A DNA stretch of 64,000 nt from Sipunculus nudus (lineage: Eukaryota; Annelida; Sipuncula; Golfingiida; Sipunculidae): assembly GCA_026874595.1 (NCBI GenBank), contig CM049306.1, positions 78,704,142 through 78,768,141 of the forward strand. The letters run 5' to 3'. Both the position numbers and the translations under genes were made by a program. Shown here piece after piece: positions 29,190-38,500 of this stretch (positions are counted from its first letter, which is position 1; every line of letters begins with the position of its first letter). The notes under the pieces are model-generated. The model saw only the letters and a program-made list of their open reading frames with translations, was not told the origin of the DNA and made no database searches.

Positions 29190-30648
29190 GCCGGCATGCC
29201 GTGAGATTTCGAGACCGTGATTTTGGCAAATGAAATTTTTTATTTATCAATAAATCATAGAAAAAATGTTGTTTTTGTTTATCAATGTTAACGGTTTTAT
29301 TACCTGTAAATATTGAAATTTCGTTTTTAGTGCTCAATTTAGTCGTTTCGACCTCTGTAATAATATATTTAAATATTTTTTTCAACATATTTTAAAGAAT
29401 AGAATATTCAATAATTCAGTTTCAAGTATCTTTAAGTCTATTCAGAACTTCTTTCTCTGAAATAAACTGAATTTATTATTAAATCATGAAGGCGTGTTAT
29501 ATTTGCGCTAACCCATGCTTTAAAAAGAAGGGGCTAATTTCCTTTATATAAAATGTTTTTATTTCCCCAAATGAACTGGCTTAATATTTTATCTGGTGTC
29601 ATTTTACTAAATGGAAGAATTACCATTCCAATGTGTCAAAAGCTTTGGAGAAATCGAGCTGAATTAAAGCACCTTCTTTATTACATAATTTTGTATAATT
29701 AATAATGTCCTGAGCTAAACGTATATTGTTACCAATATAGCGCCCCTTAATATAGCCTGTTTGGTCTAAATTAATTATATGATCTACTACTTTCTGTATT
29801 CTTTTTGCAAATATAAATGTTAATATTTTGTAATCTGTATTACACAGGCTTATTGGTCTGTAATTATTAAGTTCTTCTTTATCTCCCTTTTTAAAGATTA
29901 AAGAGATAACGGCTTTTCTCATTGATATTGGCATTTCCTGTTTAATATAGATTTAATTTTGGAGGTCATAGAAAATTGGCCCAAGTATTTTCCAGAACTT
30001 ATTGGTAAAATTCATTGGGAAGGCCATCTAAACCAGGGGATTTGTTATCTTTTAACTGATTTATAATATTATCACATTCTTGTTTTGTTATCGGTTTATC
30101 AAATAGTTCATGTTGCTTTTCAGATAATTTGGGAAATACCCCTGTTTCATTAAAATATGTATCTATCTCAGATTTAGATGGTGCTGATGACGTGTAAAGT
30201 TGTTAATAACATTCTGATATTATTTGCAGAATCCTATCATCATCAGTATAAGAGATATTACGATATTTTATACAAGTGATTGTATTCATCATTTGATGTT
30301 TTCTTTCTAAAGAGAAGAAATACTTGGAACTTCTCTCTCCATCCTCGACCCATCTTGCTCTAGATCGGATTTGGGCACCTTTTGTTTTTTCATCATATAG
30401 AACATTTAAATCTAATTCAGACTTGGTAATTTCTTCTTCTTTTCCAGTTTCCTTTTCCAGATTCAATATCTTCTGTTCAAGACACCTTATTTTGTTTTTC
30501 TTATATGAAGCTTTTTCCTTTGAGTAAACAATTGAAATTTCTCTTACTTTAATTTTAATGAGATCCCACAATAATAAAAGTGTAATAGTACCTTTATATT
30601 CTGTAAGACACTGGTTTATAATATTTTCTCTTAATTTTATGTAAACGG
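29190..30648 (-). pseudogene. LINE ORF2, downstream part (linker, RT, C-terminal segments)
   Basis: Continues the ORF2 started at 36,984 after the inserted element. In order on the minus strand: VYIKLRENIINQCLTEYKG (30,648 down), then RSRARWVEDGERSSKYFFSL near 30,355. DNKSPGLDGLPNEFYQ is near 30,040. RT motifs KAVISLIFKKGDKEELNNY and YRPISLCNTDYKIL are near 29,910-29,840. QTGYIKGRYIGNNIRLAQD is near 29,760, and LIQLDFSKAFDTLEW ends near 29,620. The frame then jumps to SQFIWGNKNILYKGN near 29,560 and a later FFYDLLINKKFHLP near 29,240. The fingers/palm-to-thumb segment with the YxDD box is therefore deleted. The motif set fits the L1/Tx1 group. Dead copy. Confidence 0.85.
30641..30648. repeat. 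Left 8-bp target duplication GTAAACGG
   Basis: Identical to 36,178-36,185, flanking the hAT-type element. In the LINE it encodes part of ...DTVYIK.... Confidence 0.9.
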
Positions 30649-30659
30649 CAGACATGGGG

Positions 30660-30815
30660 TCTATTACAGTTGTTCTATTACTATTACTATTACTATTACT
30701 TTCAATTTCTGATATTACTATTACTTTTACTATTACCACATTTTATCTTCTATTACTATTACTATTACTATTACTGGGGTATCTATTACTATTACTATTA
30801 CTATTACATAAACTG
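30660..30815 (+). repeat. Left subterminal CTATTA hexamer array
   Basis: Several runs of CTATTACTATTACTATTAC broken by short spacers. Likely transposase contact sites or a microsatellite born in the element. Confidence 0.85.
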
Positions 30816-31003
30816 ATGGGAGGATTCTAGACCTTGCGCAGCCATGAGTGCTATAAACTAGCACTGCAATCACATTTTTATATTATATATTAATATTAGA
30901 AGCACCTATATCATCCAATTACCTACACAATTTTCTCATACTGTGTCTGTCATTAACAATAAGCCTAATGATACTGGAGATCTTAGTTATTTCAGCTTCT
31001 TTA

Positions 31004-31064
<61 letters not shown>

Positions 31065-32664
31065 AAACCTCAATGATTATTGGGGCGTTTCAAGTCGAAA
31101 TTATAAGATAATTGTATGAACTCTTGAATGCATGTTATTTAAAAGCAACCCATTGTAAAGACCCTGGCAAATGTAAAATATTGATTTATAATTATATGCA
31201 TACTTGTACATTTTTTAGCGAACCTGTGAGCTTATGCAATGGTGCGGCGTCGTCCGTCGTGCGTCGTGTGTCGTGCGTCGTCCGTCGTCTGTACGTTAAC
31301 CATAACTATCTCAAAAATGGCTGGAGCTAGAATCACCAAATATTTTGCAAATAATCAGTCATCGAAAAAAACTATATCGGATTTTGTTTATTTTTTTTCT
31401 AACTGCATTTTCTTAGATTTTATAGGGAAAAAGCTAAAAAAAGCTTTAAAAATCTTCTTCTCCGAAACTGTCCAGCCAAAATGTCCAATATTTCACAGAA
31501 ATGATCCCTGGAACAATTTTTCTCAAGTTTGTTCGAATGTTTTCAGTTCGGAGATTTTTGGCCGAGTTACAGGAGGTTGAACTTTGTTACCTGTGCAAAA
31601 AATGCAATGTTATGCCAATGTTGGTCACATAAGTCATATCTGAAATTGAGGTATTGGTGGCGTCACCTGCATCTGCCTTTTTTGTACGGGGTCATCAGTG
31701 CCTGTATTACACTGAGGGCTCAAAAAACTTCTTCTCTGAAACCATGTGGCCAAAGTGTTTAATATCGCAAAGAAATGATCCTAGGGTAGTGCTTTCCACA
31801 GTTTGTTCAAATGGTCTCAGTTCAGTGACTTTTGGCTAAGTTATGGGAAGCTGAATTTATAGTCATATGCCATAACAGCCCATTTTAGCTCAGTGGCTAC
31901 AAAGATCTTCTTCTCAAAAACCACTGGGCCAAATTCTTAAATCTCACACATTAATTATCCTCAGATGTTGATAATTCAAGTTTGTTCAAATGGTTTTGGT
32001 TCACTGCTTTTTGGCTGAGTTACGGGAAGCTCAACTTAGCCAGTTTGCTGTATCTTCCTATATGAGTTATAAACCTGCAAAACGTTTTTCGACTGATGCC
32101 ACTGAAGCCAGTTTGTTAAATATTTTACAAGAATAATCCCTACAATTATTCTTATAATAATTGTCATTACTGGTTCCACATGAATGATTTTTAGCTGAAT
32201 TATGGAGCTTGAATTGAGTCATTTTACCATATATGTTAGCTGTGTGATGCTGTTAAATCTAGCCTGGCACCATTTTATCAGCATCTATTACATCATGCCA
32301 CTAGACATTTAGATTTCAGGTTATCTTTGGTTAATATTGACAAGAAAGTTTTTTTAAAAGCTTTTAAAAAAAATTAGATTGATGATTTAAGTTATTTATC
32401 ATACCAGGCAATGTTACAATCATGGATATTCAGCTCTCTGTGGCTATATAAAGACAACTGTACGTGGATTATAAATTATTGGTTTCCCTACTCAACTTAA
32501 TTCAAGAGTTTGCCATCAATGAGATATATCTGTATTTTAATTTTGCATTCAGTATGTATCCATAATAATTTTACATATATTCCTGATTTCTTTTTTATAA
32601 AAAGTCATCTGAAAAGCATTTTGTATTGGGAAAATAAATTTCAAAGTTATTACAAGTAGGGACC

Positions 32665-33060
32665 ACTTTTGTGCACAGATGGCAGCACTTGGTTTACCAT
32701 TGGCAGATTGCCAGTGCCTTGATGTTGGCCATGTGCCAAGATGATGTCAGCTCTATAAATAGTTTTGGCACAGTGCCAGGATTGGAAGAAGTGCAGCCAG
32801 GTATAGGTCAAGAGTTCACTCAGTGCAGTAGCTACATTCTATTTATAGCTTTGGCAGACTGCTCACTACATCATATTTGGCACCAAAGAGCAGCCTGAAT
32901 CTATTTATAGCTCTGGCAGACTGCCAACTGTGTCAGATTATGCAACAGGTCAAGAGTTCACTCAGTGCAGCTAGGTACAGGTCAAAAGTTTACCCAGTCT
33001 AGCCAGGTGCAGGTCAAGGATTCACTCAGTGCAGTAGCTTGAGGCAGCAATTTGTCACAG
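32665..33060 (+). repeat. Short-unit tandem repeats
   Basis: AGGTCAAGAGTTCACTCAGTGCAG recurs with small changes near 32,806, 32,948 and 33,012. TCTATTTATAGCT(T/C)TGGCAGACTGC recurs near 32,838 and 32,900. The set lies inside the nested element. Confidence 0.7.
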
Positions 33061-33189
33061 GTCACTCGGGGGCAACTGCCTTACTCACCTAAGCCTTGTC
33101 AGCTCAGTGCATCAAACTCTGGGAAGTTTGCTGTATTGGACTGATATTTTGACCTGTCTATGCGTCTTTGATGGTATTCTCATTTACAA

Positions 33190-34310
33190 GACAGGTGGTG
33201 CCACCTACATTGACTTTTGCAGTGTATGCACCTGCTTATTTCTACAGAGGATTTTTATACATCAGCCTTAAATTGGGCATGTTTATACATATCAGGTAGC
33301 TTTATAGTGTACAAAACTGGTGGCGCCACGTACAGTAATTTTTCCACAGTGTATGTCCCTCCTTATTTCATAGGAGGGGTTTGTTTGACAGACTGGTGGT
33401 GCCAGCTACAATCATTGTATCCACCAAAACAGAGTTTTGTGGATACTATGTTTTCAGTCGGACGCCGCATAGGTTTCCGAACTTCATACCCACTGGGCAG
33501 AATTTTTTAAAATTTGAAATTATGATCGGTCACATGTGAACTGCTGTGCCCTCATTTTTGGTTGACCTCTGACCTTTCCTCTCTTCCAAGCGTCCATTTG
33601 TGTGTCTGTTTCCACACATAAACCCACATATCTCGGGAACCGTTTGACCGATAAGGCTAAAGATATTGCACAAATGTAGCCCTTGGAAAGCTTTATAACA
33701 TACATTAAAATGGTGGCGCCACCTGCAACCATTTTTGCACAGCGTCCATCTGTTCATCTGCCTTAGGATAAAAACACTTACATCTCAGCATTGGTTGGAC
33801 TTATCCACCTGAAATTTTGCATGTGTATACATTCTGGATAGCTTTCTTGATTTTATGACAGGTGGCGCCACCTACATTCACGTTTAAGCTGCAGACATCC
33901 AAGCTCATATCTCAAGAACCGTTTGACCAGTTGGGCCAAAATTTTGCGTGTGTATAGATCTCCGATAGCTCTTTATCATATGCAAAACTGGTGGTGCCAC
34001 CTGCCACCATTTTTGCACAGCGTCCATCTGTTCATCTGCCTTGGGATAAAATCACTCATATCTCGGCAGTGGTTTGACATATCCTCCTGAAATTTTGCAT
34101 GTGTATAGATCTCACATAGCTCTTAATCATACACAAAATTGGTGGTGCCACCTGCCACCATTTTTGCACAGCGTCCGTCTGTTTGTCTGCCGTGGGCTAA
34201 AATCACTCATATCTCAGTAGTGGTTTGACTAATCAACCTGAAATTTTGCATGTTTATACATCTTGGATAGCTTTCTGGATTTTAGGCAGGTCGGTGCCAC
34301 CTACATTTAT
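33190..34310 (+). repeat. GGTGGYGCCACC palindrome array, forward copy
   Basis: Palindrome variants occur near 33,194, 33,319, 33,395, 33,712, 33,861, 33,990, 34,140 and 34,291. The last five are spaced 149/129/150/151 bp. Shared text between them includes GCACAGCGTCC(A/G)TCTGTT and CTGAAATTTTGCATGTGTAT. Inverse orientation of the array at 4,200-5,270. Confidence 0.8.
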
Positions 34311-34452
34311 GTATTTGCTGCAGACATTCAGGCTTATATCTCAGGACTGGTTTGACTTATTCCCCTTGCCACTCAATCTATGCCTGACTTCACCTTTCCC
34401 ACTCTGATTTTGGCAGATACACATAGTCGCTTGTTGACTACTCATATTCTAG

Positions 34453-36009
34453 TTTTTGTGTTGTGTGCACCCATGCCAGAATTGCAGCAGTGATGTTTGT
34501 TTAATTGTTTCTTGTTCTAAGTGTTTAGTACTTGCATTGTTCATATACATGTCACACATGTTCTTGAAAAGTAATGGTCCAGCATTGAAGCATTAGGCCT
34601 ATAGGCCTTGTTATTATTTTCATATATATTTCACATAAATTTTTTTATAGTACATACTTCTGTTAAGATTTAATCTTCTTTCGCATAATTAATAAATAAA
34701 GTTTTCAGTGTAACTAAAAATGGTCTCCAAAAGAATCATTCATGATTATATGTCATATTAATATTTAGTATCAAAGCTGACAATTTAGTCCTTTATGTAT
34801 GTATCAGGAGCGGAATTTTGGTAGGGCTGTGTCCTGTTTCTCCTGTTTACATCAAGATTCTGGACAGATTCTAAACTGGAGACTAAAGAACCCCATCTTC
34901 TCAAGTGTATGTATGTTCATTTGGATATGATGCCATGTTTTATTTTATCACATAGTACATCTTGAGAGTGAACAGAGAGGTAGTAAACTTTACAATAATG
35001 GTAGCATGCATGGCTTTTATTCTTCAGGCATGCTCTCCTTATTGCAGCAAAACCAGCATAGGATAATTTAGGAATATGGAGAGTGATTTAAACTTATCAA
35101 TTAATCAATTTTACAAAACAAATAAAATATTATTTATATCACTTTCACAATTAATTTGGTATTCAACAATCTTATACTTTAAATTTTGTACATAACAAGA
35201 TCTAATTATTTGATATCAAAATTTCAGATATTAAATAATAAAATATTATTAACAGTTACTTATATTCTCATATTATATAATCAAATAAATTAATATCTTA
35301 AAAAAATTGTTCATTTAATTTTCAAAATATAAATTAACATAATTTTAGATACTGAATGAAGGTCTGCAAAATTGGTACTATGAAATAACAGACAAGTATT
35401 AAAAGAATTATTTTAAAAGAATATTTATATAAATTAAATAGATAGTACATGTGCCTGCAATATGACTTTATCAAAGTGATTGTAGTACTGGTATGAGTTT
35501 ATATAGCATTGTAGGCTTCCATACGTTATGGGTAGTGAAAACAGCATAAGCTTATCATGAACATTTTGGGTCTGCACTGCAACTACATCTGGTTCCATAT
35601 TCTATTTTTCTTAAATGTGTGTTATTGCAATCTGTATGATTAAAATGCAAACTGGCTTGTGAAAATAAATCTAGGTACATTTCAGAATATGCATATGGAT
35701 TGATGGATGTGAGATAAGATGTACATGTCAATATAATAATACACAATTTATCTGTCTCATAACATCAAACATTCCTCTGTTTATCCATGGTTTACAAATC
35801 AAAGGTCAGATTGTGCCAGGTTACCTATTTGGCTGTGACCTGCTTTGTCCAGTACTCTTATGTAATTAGCACTAGAGGTCACCAGCAGTGTGGCAGCTGG
35901 CCCATGCTTGCCTCAACAATAGGCACTTCCTGGGCAATTGCTGGACAAGAATTGAGTGTGTTCAGCATTATTTGCTGATATGCTTCATGATCAAGGGGCT
36001 CACAGGAAG
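34453..36009. other. AT-rich interior of the hAT-type element
   Basis: No gene is recognised; only frames up to 63 codons. Confidence 0.5.
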
Positions 36010-36170
36010 TAATAGAAAGTAATATGTATTACTCTTTTACTTTGCCTTCTGTTTCTATTACTATTACTATTACAGCTAAAATGTTTGAGTATATTACTAT
36101 TACTATTACTATTACATGGAAAAAGCTGTAATAGTCTATTACTATTACTATAACTTATTACTATTACCCC
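36010..36170 (+). repeat. Right subterminal CTATTA hexamer array
   Basis: Runs of CTATTACTATTAC on the plus strand, the same orientation as the left array even though the element ends are inverted. Confidence 0.85.
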
Positions 36171-36177
36171 ATGTCTG

Positions 36178-36185
36178 GTAAACGG
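36178..36185. repeat. Right 8-bp target duplication GTAAACGG
   Basis: Identical to 30,641-30,648. Confidence 0.9.
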
Positions 36186-36984
36186 TGTCATTTAAAACCT
36201 GGATATTTAACTTCCAATAGCCTTGACCTCTGTTGTTCATGCAAGTTTCTATGTCAATGCCAACCGCATTGTGATCGGTCAAACGATCTCCGATTTTACC
36301 GGTAATTACTGTGCAGTTAGTGTAATTTCTAATATGGGATTTTAATGTTTTTGAAACAAATATATAATCAAGTCTGCTTCTGAGTTTCCCACTGTTGTCG
36401 GCACATGTAAAACGTTCATCATTATCACTTAAAAGAAAAGTGTCTACTAAATCATGAGTACAAACAAAGTTTTTAAAGAGAGTCGTACATTTATCCTTTA
36501 AATGGAATTTAGTATCAGTATCTGTGTGTGTAAGAATACTGTTGAAATCTCCAGCAATTATTAAATTTTCCTAAGCCTTGCAGTGTTCAGTGAGCCAGTT
36601 CAGTGTCTCTGTTATAAACTCACAGCGATGTTTATCCTGGTTTGGTGCATACAAACAAACCAATGTGTACAAGTGTTCTGATATTTCTAAGTTAATTAAT
36701 AATTTTCTACCCAATTTATCTTGATATTCATCTATAATTTTAAACCCAACATTTCGGTTTATTAAAATAGCTACCCCTTTTCCATGAGAAGTATCTGACG
36801 TTGAATGTTAAACTGTACCATCCCACGAGCTGTTAAATAATCTGATAAAAGCTGAAACACAATAGGTTTCTTGCAAGAAAGCAATATCAATATTACGCCG
36901 TTTCAACCAATAGAATATTTTCTTTCGTTTAAAGTGATTGTTTAGTCCTCTGACGTTCAGAGATCAGATACGAAGACTGGCCAT
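36178..36984 (-). pseudogene. LINE ORF2, APE endonuclease part
   Basis: Starts at ATG 36,984 (MASLRI, then a TGA), 13 nt after the ORF1 stop. Motifs in order: SLNVRGLNNHFKRKK (metal-binding Asn), IAFLQETYC (catalytic Glu), KGVAILINRNV, LVCLYAPNQDKH, IIAGDFNSIL (Asp and Asn), GKLRSRLDYIFVS (Asp) and DRLTDHNAVGID (catalytic His). It ends YWKLNIQVLNDTV at the hAT target site. All the usual APE catalytic positions are visible, but three in-frame stops (in MASLRI*S, DGTV*H and CKA*E) inactivate it. The frame is otherwise unbroken, so the copy is not very old. Family: L1/Tx1-like. Confidence 0.9.
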
Positions 36985-36997
36985 TTAAACAACATAT

Positions 36998-38285
36998 CTA
37001 AAAATATTCTGTATCAGTTTCCAAATCGATGTCCGATAAACAGGAAAATCTATTGTTGTCGGCAATTTTCTGAGTTTTCCCAGCTTTTTTGTGGGTATCT
37101 ACATCATTTGGCGACCTTGAAGCGAGTCGTTTTGGACGGGACGAAGTTCGTCCAGGTTCGTCGTCCTGTGGTTTGTCCTGATTTATTTCATACGTGATGT
37201 ACTGGCGTTTTACGTTTTGCAGTTAACGACCAAACAAGTTTTTCCCCTTCCAGCTTGTTTTGGTGGTAACTTTTGATAAGTACCTAGAAAGCCCGGTCCC
37301 TAAATGAAAATCTGGGGAAGCGAGTGCTAAGCTTGATGAGCCAGTGGCAATCATTCATCCTTAAATTCAGGGATTTGTTGAATTTTTTCAAATATGAGGT
37401 TTTCTAAAATGTCTCGGGTATCGTCTGGGGCTAACTTGTCGTCGATTGACGAGCCCAATTTTCTCGCAATTCCAGCATGTTTGGCATTTGCGATTTGTTG
37501 AGCTAGATCGTCACAGTCATTTTCAACGGCACGGCGATATTGAAAGGCATGCTCCAGGGAGGGAAAGTTTTGACCATAAACGTCAAGTGTACAGGGGAAA
37601 TCACTTGATAGAATATCAGTGTGCCCTGATATGATCTGAACGTCCTGGTCTCTCACATACCTAGAGCATTTAGGACTTCCAGCTTTATGCCCTTTCTCAT
37701 TACAGACTGAACAGATTGTATCTGCAAACTGGTTTAAATGGAATATACGGCATTTGGATGGTCCGATCATAATGTTACGTGGGAGAGCTTCTGGTATGGG
37801 GTTGTCAACGAACACAAACCGATTTCCGTTTTTGTATGAGGTTAACAGACCGTCCTTGGTTCTTTCATATTCATATTTGACCTCAGATACCAGAGTGAAG
37901 TTTTTTTCTCTGAGGAAATCTACGATATATGAGTTATCGTATGAGAGGGGTAGATCACAAACTTTGATTTTGATCGGACGGGGAGAAGTTGGGTCAGATC
38001 TAATAGTTAATGGATTTCTATCTGACAGAGTAATGTGTTTACCCTAAGGATTATACCTTCTGCGAGTAATTTTACTCTTGCTTCGGTAGATTTAGCGTAT
38101 ATACGCCACAAATTTTGTACCTGTTGACCCTCGTCAATGTTTACAGTCCCGACGACTCTAGCTGCGGCGGAGCACACCTCGAAAGGTCTCATTACGTCGC
38201 CTTCCTCTGAGTAATCCTTTCTTTTAGGGATTACTTGGTCATTTGTAAAGAAAACCGGTAGCACACTTTCCGCTGTCATTATCAA
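36998..38285 (-). pseudogene. LINE ORF1 with RRM-like, CCHC knuckle and NADAR domain
   Basis: About 429 codons from ATG 38,285 to TAG 36,998. The N-terminal ~80 residues include QNLWRIYAKSTEARVKLL. After a 1-nt frameshift near 38,041 the frame resumes at GKHITLSDRNP. An RRM-like region follows (IKIKVCDLPLSYDNSYIVDF to VFVDNP), as in many L1/Tx1 ORF1 proteins. The zinc knuckle is CSVCNEKGHKAGSPKC, CX2CX4HX6C, at 37,713-37,666. From 37,614 the text reads as NADAR/YbiA: SSDFPCTLDVYGQNF, SLEHAFQYRRA, AKHAGIARKLG and IFEKIQQIPEF. After a 1-nt frameshift near 37,350 it continues SPDFHLGTGLSRYL and TSWKGKNLFGR, matching the family's C-terminal W-G-N-LG motif. One in-frame TAA lies at 37,223-37,225. 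A basic tail ends the protein. Expected role of ORF1: RNA binding in the LINE RNP. The role of NADAR here is unknown. Confidence 0.85.
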
Positions 38286-38500
38286 TGCAATGAGTTCCTT
38301 TCAATTCACAATAAATCACAAATATCAGTTTTTGAATAGAGGAATTTTCTATCTTGACATGTATTCTGAGAGTTAGTACTATAAACAAGTTCTCAGCAAA
38401 AACTTACGAAGGTTGTCGTTCAGTTTCACGCGTTTGTGATCAAAATTTGTCAGAGCAGTCGAGAGGCGAACTCTACGACACCTGCATCACGTGACCGTTT
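38286..38500 (-). promoter_or_regulatory. Probable LINE 5' UTR / internal promoter region
   Basis: Lies directly upstream of ORF1 on the minus strand. It contains a CACGTG E-box within TCACGTGAC (near 38,486). Non-LTR elements of this type carry internal promoters in the 5' UTR; that role is inferred from position only. Confidence 0.4.

Follow-up and report, generated by a model that had tools for sequence, protein, structure and literature searches.

The 64,000-nucleotide stretch of Sipunculus nudus DNA analyzed here (the window) contains a dead copy of a Tx1/L1-like long interspersed nuclear element (LINE), whose first open reading frame (ORF1) joins two RNA recognition motifs (RRMs) and a zinc knuckle to a NADAR domain that is an inherited part of the protein. 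With all functions inferred, we think it fairly probable that NADAR is an enzyme in those LINE families that keep its Glu/Lys/Glu residues, that it works without hydrolysis in the family of the window element, and that TRIM genes of the same genome captured it. L-numbers denote genomic loci, mostly of this genome (L053 lies on a Planktothrix plasmid), and P-numbers denote proteins from protein searches.

NADAR is an inherited part of ORF1

The window ORF1 begins with the ATG at 38279, ends with the stop at 37000-36998 on the minus strand, and has been split in four by two frame changes and an in-frame stop codon. A preliminary description of the window had reported an L1/Tx1-like LINE with an RRM-like region and a CCHC knuckle ahead of NADAR and an ORF1 stop 13 nucleotides before ORF2. 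It was correct in each respect: we found endonuclease and reverse transcriptase similarity, two RRM folds with Protein Data Bank (PDB) matches ahead of NADAR in the AlphaFold model of the related protein P0001, a CX2CX4HX6C knuckle, and an ORF2 ATG at 36984, with 13 nucleotides between it and the end of the ORF1 stop. Three NADAR motifs occur in the order described (37560-37528, 37485-37453, and 37258-37226), but the spacing of about 130 residues given for them was too long, the first and last lying in different frames and spanning about 112 residues. The Pfam check proposed there (PF08719; gathering cutoff, 35.1 bits) succeeded for the relatives L044 and L043 but not for the window itself, whose 230-aa piece alone stayed below the cutoff (E 0.0033, 18.1 bits).

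Two same-family copies, L044 (2,322 bases) and L046 (2,148 bases), each share 97% DNA identity with the window element. ORF1 is wholly open in neither; the L044 frame is uninterrupted between its second RRM and the stop codon, and its NADAR scores 53.0 bits. In a sister family, L043 (69% identity in protein), ORF1 is open over 448 aa and scores 53.5 bits, so that NADAR belongs to the element as first described, and further relatives scored 64.3 (L038), 91.1 (L032), 93.1 (L028), 97.5 (L024), and 98.7 bits (L023). The domain was found to have the YbiA fold. In L028, L032, L038, L040, L043, and L047, a single ORF1 frame covers the RRM region, NADAR, and the tail, with endonuclease sequence then following on the same strand in each. 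Among the matches listed by a genome search with the 230-aa piece, 9 further rows of 85 to 97% identity extend into the NADAR part (the shortest by 27 residues), and every row of at least 85% that is restricted to the N-terminal part adjoins one reaching NADAR. Siblings without the domain, which the preliminary description had named as the observation that would make NADAR a chance neighbor, were absent inside the family; LINEs of this genome that are less closely related (L056 and L057) do have an RRM-knuckle ORF1 free of NADAR. That NADAR is such a neighbor, or a host gene struck by the insertion, could be argued from the window copy alone, which is broken and below the Pfam cutoff. We give this reading virtually no credence, as it is refuted by the related copies: dispersed open ORF1s of 424 to 464 aa carry both knuckle and NADAR, and proteins from other sources (P0001, P0003-P0019, and P0025, of which P0018 belongs to the oyster Saccostrea cucullata) have the same build, which agrees with a report on Crassostrea gigas (PMC12477816).

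A search of the genome (1.43 Gb, 153 contigs) listed 141 NADAR matches, with 150 of 204 candidates scored. We examined 44 of the 141 loci, chosen by score and open frame and hence not a representative sample; some of them match reference modules taken from themselves. An RRM-knuckle module before NADAR and an endonuclease after it were present at 21 loci, an L1-type ORF1 before NADAR at 3, an SGNH hydrolase after it at 9, TRIM (L027 and L050) or TRIM-like (L049) sequence at 3, and no flanking module of these kinds at 8. Because copies inside each of five LINE families share 95 to 99% DNA identity, these LINEs were mobile fairly recently, with NADAR already in place.

The class assignment is supported by ORF2, in which the APE-type endonuclease exceeded its cutoff of 24.5 bits in L023 (48.0 bits) and L028 (44.8 bits); the Pfam Exo_endo_phos match at 36148-36570 of the window narrowly missed it (E 4.9e-5, 23.6 bits). 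Compared with solved structures only, the L024 ORF2 matched LINE-1 ORF2p at 157.8 bits and the next other chain at 59. The reverse transcriptase, judged from L024, is nearest the L1 group, and the window retains only its N-terminal part. The provisional name Tx1 follows its use for C. gigas (PMC12477816) and the resemblance of these LINEs to P0018 from oyster. The window LINE extends past 36148, its ORF2 being interrupted by an insert at 30649-36177 and picking up again at 30648-29629 (Table 1). The insert may be hAT-like; GTAATA-type repeats lie close to its ends.

Table 1. Positions of the window LINE copy and of the TRIM and TRIM-like genes
Feature	Position	Strand	Basis or location
Decayed Tx1/L1-like LINE copy	29629..38496	-	97% DNA identity to L044 over 36178-38496; ORF2 similarity again from 30652 to 29629
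ORF1, no intact frame	36998..38279	-	Pieces 38279-38007, 38043-37351, 37354-37226, 37222-36998
Two-RRM region, approximate	37714..38279	-	Homology to P0001 residues 5-184; P0001 AlphaFold model and PDB matches
Zinc knuckle CSVCNEKGHKAGSPKC, CX2CX4HX6C	37666..37713	-	
NADAR domain, limits approximate, crosses one frame change and one stop	37181..37662	-	Pfam 18.1 bits (N-terminal part), L044 53.0 bits, 53-domain alignment
ORF1 C-terminal tail, less conserved	36998..37180	-	L043 vs L044 dN (nonsynonymous divergence)
ORF2 start and endonuclease domain, with stops	36178..36984	-	tblastn with L028 endonuclease, E 1.5e-51
Insert in ORF2, 5,529 bp	30649..36177	.	12-bp terminal inverted repeats CAGACATGGGGT; 8-bp target duplication GTAAACGG at 30641-30648 and 36178-36185
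ORF2 continuation to N-terminal part of reverse transcriptase, frame-shifted	29629..30648	-	tblastn: L028 ORF2 E 8e-55, L024 ORF2 E 1e-25
TRIM gene ending in LINE-type knuckle and NADAR	L027:6132-8159		Genome C5, 28.2 and 28.9 Mb jointly for L027 and L050
TRIM gene ending in LINE-type knuckle and NADAR	L050:96-2024		Genome C5
TRIM-like gene ending in LINE-type knuckle and NADAR	L049:527-1999		Genome C3, 12.3 Mb

A second build, an L1-type ORF1 fused to NADAR, was found in L013, L012, and L014 of this genome and in P0020; L013 matched both LINE-1 ORF1p (2ykp, E 0.005) and NADAR (8bau, E 8e-12). In constraint tests of a common origin of the L1-type and Tx1-type NADARs, a clade of Tx1, TRIM, and L1 rows gave p 0.117, and the L1 type alone as a clade gave p 0.11. 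In L056 and L057 of this genome, ORF1 has an RRM region and knuckles followed by endonuclease, with no NADAR sequence. The RRM-knuckle ORF1-like protein P0026 of Branchiostoma lanceolatum resembles the ORF1 of L056/L057 and also has no NADAR sequence; the Pfam NADAR search found nothing in L056 or P0026. These forms suggest that NADAR was added as a module to an older, NADAR-free RRM-knuckle ORF1, the alternative being loss in the NADAR-free lineages. Phages searched with the window piece gave no match, and single scans of the genome_contigs and viral_contigs collections gave no relative. By eye, the ORF1s of L028 (IQAFFHKK) and L032 (LRDYLKK) have short PIP-box-like C-termini.

The ADP-ribose pocket and selection on NADAR

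Eight residues surround ADP-ribose in NADAR: E43, K50, R79, W89, R93, E125, D130, and W133 (PMC11543638). All eight are kept in L001 of this genome and in two bacterial proteins, five in L032, four in L028, L024, and L035, three in L038, and two in L044, L043, and L047. L044 retains E43 and D130 only, with Arg at 50, Ser at 79, Thr at 93, Leu at both 125 and 133, and W89 missing. Positions 43, 50, and 125 thus read Glu/Arg/Leu in L044, L043, and L047, which departs from the set expected of an active hydrolase (E43, K50, and Glu, Asp, or His at 125).

Among the 28 Tx1-type LINE NADARs, E43 is present in 27 and Glu/Lys/Glu is complete in 15. E125 is absent from all nine Tx1-type rows of this genome, replaced by Leu in L043, L047, L044, and L038 (W133 is also Leu in the first three). 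It is His in P0001 and Glu in the other 18 of 28 (P0003-P0019 and P0025), where for P0006-P0009 and P0011-P0019 it was assigned by its spacing of 7 to 8 residues to a Trp, the alignment column being one off. Since phage NADARs use His at position 125, P0001 may be active. In the L1-type build, the three positions are Glu/Lys/Glu in P0020, Met/Lys/Glu in L012, and Asn/Arg/Asp in L013 and L014. The tree requires at least four changes at position 125 when Asp is counted as kept.

Between L043 and L044, dN was 0.247 in NADAR and 0.237 in the upstream part, both with saturated synonymous divergence (dS); in the ORF1 tail it was 0.594 at dS 1.52. Selection thus maintains NADAR in the window lineage despite the lost pocket. 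Within-family dN/dS comparisons contained too few changes; L046 was left out of the dN comparisons as its frame is out of register within NADAR, which similarly affects some within-family comparisons. The nine Tx1-type LINE NADARs of this genome have net charges of 0 to -12, and the three TRIM or TRIM-like domains +6 to +9. Being neutral to acidic, NADAR of the window family is unlikely to contact nucleic acid itself, and the remaining roles are in building the particle or in binding a partner.

The preliminary description had proposed that NADAR serves this element as an ADP-ribosyl-stripping counter-defence. A working hydrolase in the window family would be in keeping with the retained E43, with the low dN of NADAR against saturated dS, and with the tolerance of Arg for Lys at position 50 in vitro: the K95R variant of E. 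coli C7 NADAR still hydrolyzes in vitro, although it does not rescue cells (PMC11543638). Nonetheless, E125 is Leu in all four of the rows named above, W89 and R93 are lost, and changing D171 of the E. coli enzyme, the structural equivalent of E125, to Ala or Asn abolishes efficient activity (PMC11543638). With two of eight contacts left and the catalytic Glu replaced by Leu, hydrolysis is not expected even though the domain is conserved. We therefore regard enzymatic counter-defence as unlikely for the window family and a working hydrolase there as improbable; an ADP-ribosyl-stripping role is plausible for the LINE families that retain E43, K50, and E125.

NADAR outside LINEs

L027 (676-aa frame) and L050 (643-aa frame) have RING and B-box domains above the Pfam cutoffs and end in CVRCRKSGHEPGDP(I/V)C followed by NADAR; L049 has CRRCRELNHDVEGTVC followed by NADAR. 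No RING or B-box was matched by Pfam in L049, the N-terminal part of whose frame extends beyond the stretch examined; we call it TRIM-like from visual inspection and its tree position. The CX2CX4HX6C knuckle is present in 17 of the 19 P-number LINE ORF1s with NADAR (it is incomplete in P0007 and P0014) and in the window element, L043, L038, L032, and L028. It also occurs without NADAR in L056 and L057, and is not found in P0026. Where the NADAR start motif was detected (it was missed in L038), it lies 18 to 21 residues from the knuckle, 21 in the TRIM rows. When the genome was searched with the 230-aa piece, four of the listed places lay on contig C5, L027 and L050 among them, and aligned to residues 110-228 of that piece, in which the knuckle starts at 111.

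In a tree of 53 NADAR domains, rooted at the midpoint for drawing only, L027, L050, and L049 formed one clade (97/83) within a LINE clade (98/90). Constraining the 28 LINE rows to group together gave p 0.392 with the TRIM rows and p 0.038 without them. Between L027 and L050, omega (dN/dS) was 0.09 (0.04-0.15) in NADAR at dS 1.57 and 0.15 in the part before NADAR. From tree and knuckle, the simplest reading is that host TRIM genes probably captured a knuckle-NADAR cassette of LINE ORF1. Movement from TRIM to LINE instead would draw on the weakness of the rejection of a LINE-only clade and on a root that serves drawing alone, but we consider it quite unlikely: the X6 knuckle is present in the NADAR-free ORF1s of L056 and L057 (though not in P0026), the TRIM rows are nested among LINE NADARs, and RING or B-box was listed for none of the 19 proteins matching the TRIM query, few of which are from named eukaryotes.

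At nine loci (L016, L017, L018, L019, L026, L048, L015, L021, and L022), a repeated ORF encodes NADAR and an SGNH/GDSL hydrolase. In L017 and L018 it adjoins an ORF with a PHD finger, apparently the terminal part of a MULE-type transposase (SWIM and Ulp1 were recognized by eye), and in L021 a fragment of such an ORF lies near it; because of this neighbor, NADAR may also be carried by a DNA transposon. On the Planktothrix plasmid NZ_LR882945.1 (L053), a NADAR gene adjoins a gene for an SGNH/GDSL hydrolase, so that the two domains joined in the repeated ORF occur there as neighboring genes.

Proposed functions and related systems

LINE ORF1 proteins bind RNA, and some carry an esterase (PMC3905857); NADARs de-ADP-ribosylate guanosine in both DNA and RNA (PMC11543638). 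In our model, ORF1 would be a ribonucleoprotein component made up of two RRMs, the X6 zinc knuckle, NADAR, and a disordered tail. In the families that keep Glu/Lys/Glu, NADAR would most likely take ADP-ribose off guanines in the RNA or cDNA of the element itself, on which the RRMs and knuckle would hold it, as fits the P0006-P0020 type, and so undo marks presumably set by host ADP-ribosyltransferases. Shellfish pierisin orthologues ADP-ribosylate guanine in DNA in vitro. In the window family, the most likely role of NADAR is a non-hydrolytic one within the ORF1 particle, either structural or in binding a partner, and the TRIM genes would carry a captured ORF1 cassette. The LINE NADARs might instead target small ADP-ribose derivatives or ADP-ribosylated proteins of the ORF1 particle, substrates of a kind proposed for viral NADARs (PMC9503650); we judge this unlikely, as the RNA-binding modules beside NADAR bring nucleic acid within reach and the tested NADAR substrate is RNA and DNA guanosine.

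Several points weigh against the model as a whole. No guanine-ADP-ribosylating host enzyme was found, in a PF22596 search that was uninformative, matching neither a host protein nor its own control, and the pierisin comparison draws on enzymes of shellfish, whereas the window comes from a sipunculan. Loss of hydrolysis in the window family is a prediction, since the K95R enzyme still hydrolyzes in vitro and other residues could replace E125. The LINE rows as a clade without TRIM are weakly rejected, and L032, L035, L028, and L024 fall outside the main LINE clade in the free tree, although the joint clade of LINE and TRIM rows is not rejected.

The preliminary description had left open whether this architecture was already described. 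It is briefly in print for Tx1 LINEs of C. gigas, where in several families ORF1 apparently consists of a NADAR domain of the YbiA family and RNA processing was suggested (PMC12477816, 2025). The likeness extends to the LINE clade as named there and to ORF1; the available part devotes one sentence to these LINEs and refers to a supplementary figure, and in it neither a knuckle nor RRMs, loss of residues, an L1-type fusion, or capture by TRIM is mentioned. Among the papers listed by our searches, judged by title and start of abstract, no other linked NADAR with LINEs, and "NADAR" is absent from the main text of PMC10294476. The core architecture was thus already known from C. gigas, and the L1-ORF1p-type fusion, the pocket loss in the window lineage, and the probable TRIM capture did not come up in these literature searches.

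Several known systems are comparable in part. The YbiA and DarT1-NADAR hydrolases share the fold and, to the extent counted above, the catalytic residues (PMC11543638, PMC11833690, and PMC11125620), but the LINE NADARs are fused to RNA-binding modules, and in the window family the catalytic acid is gone together with most of the residues contacting ADP-ribose. NADARs and macrodomains of RNA viruses likewise place an ADP-ribose-related domain, thought to serve counter-defence, in an RNA-based parasite (PMC9503650); here the parasite is a retrotransposon, one lineage of which has lost the catalytic residues. A long terminal repeat (LTR) element with NADAR is also a retroelement that gained the domain, although it differs in type, in the protein concerned, and in place. 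TRIM5-CypA is a TRIM protein fused to a domain gained through retrotransposition. L027 and L050 are likewise TRIM fusions, with the difference that their cassette would come from a retrotransposon's own protein. Among the papers listed by our searches, judged by title and start of abstract, none reported a TRIM-NADAR protein; the 2012 paper that reportedly named NADAR may say more.

By analogy with TRIM5-CypA and retroviruses, the TRIM-knuckle-NADAR genes might restrict LINEs. A two-way arms race over ADP-ribose is possible, though doubtful: LINE ORF1 would have taken up a guanine de-ADP-ribosylase, host TRIM ligases would have taken up the knuckle-NADAR to recognize and restrict the same LINE particles, and the loss of catalysis in the window lineage would be an escape or a reuse of NADAR as a particle-building module. 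An ADP-ribose enzyme in ORF1 would suggest that invertebrate hosts ADP-ribosylate the RNA or cDNA of retroelements. If the capture is true, the TRIM genes would show how a host, probably not a vertebrate, made an immune-type gene out of part of a transposon protein.
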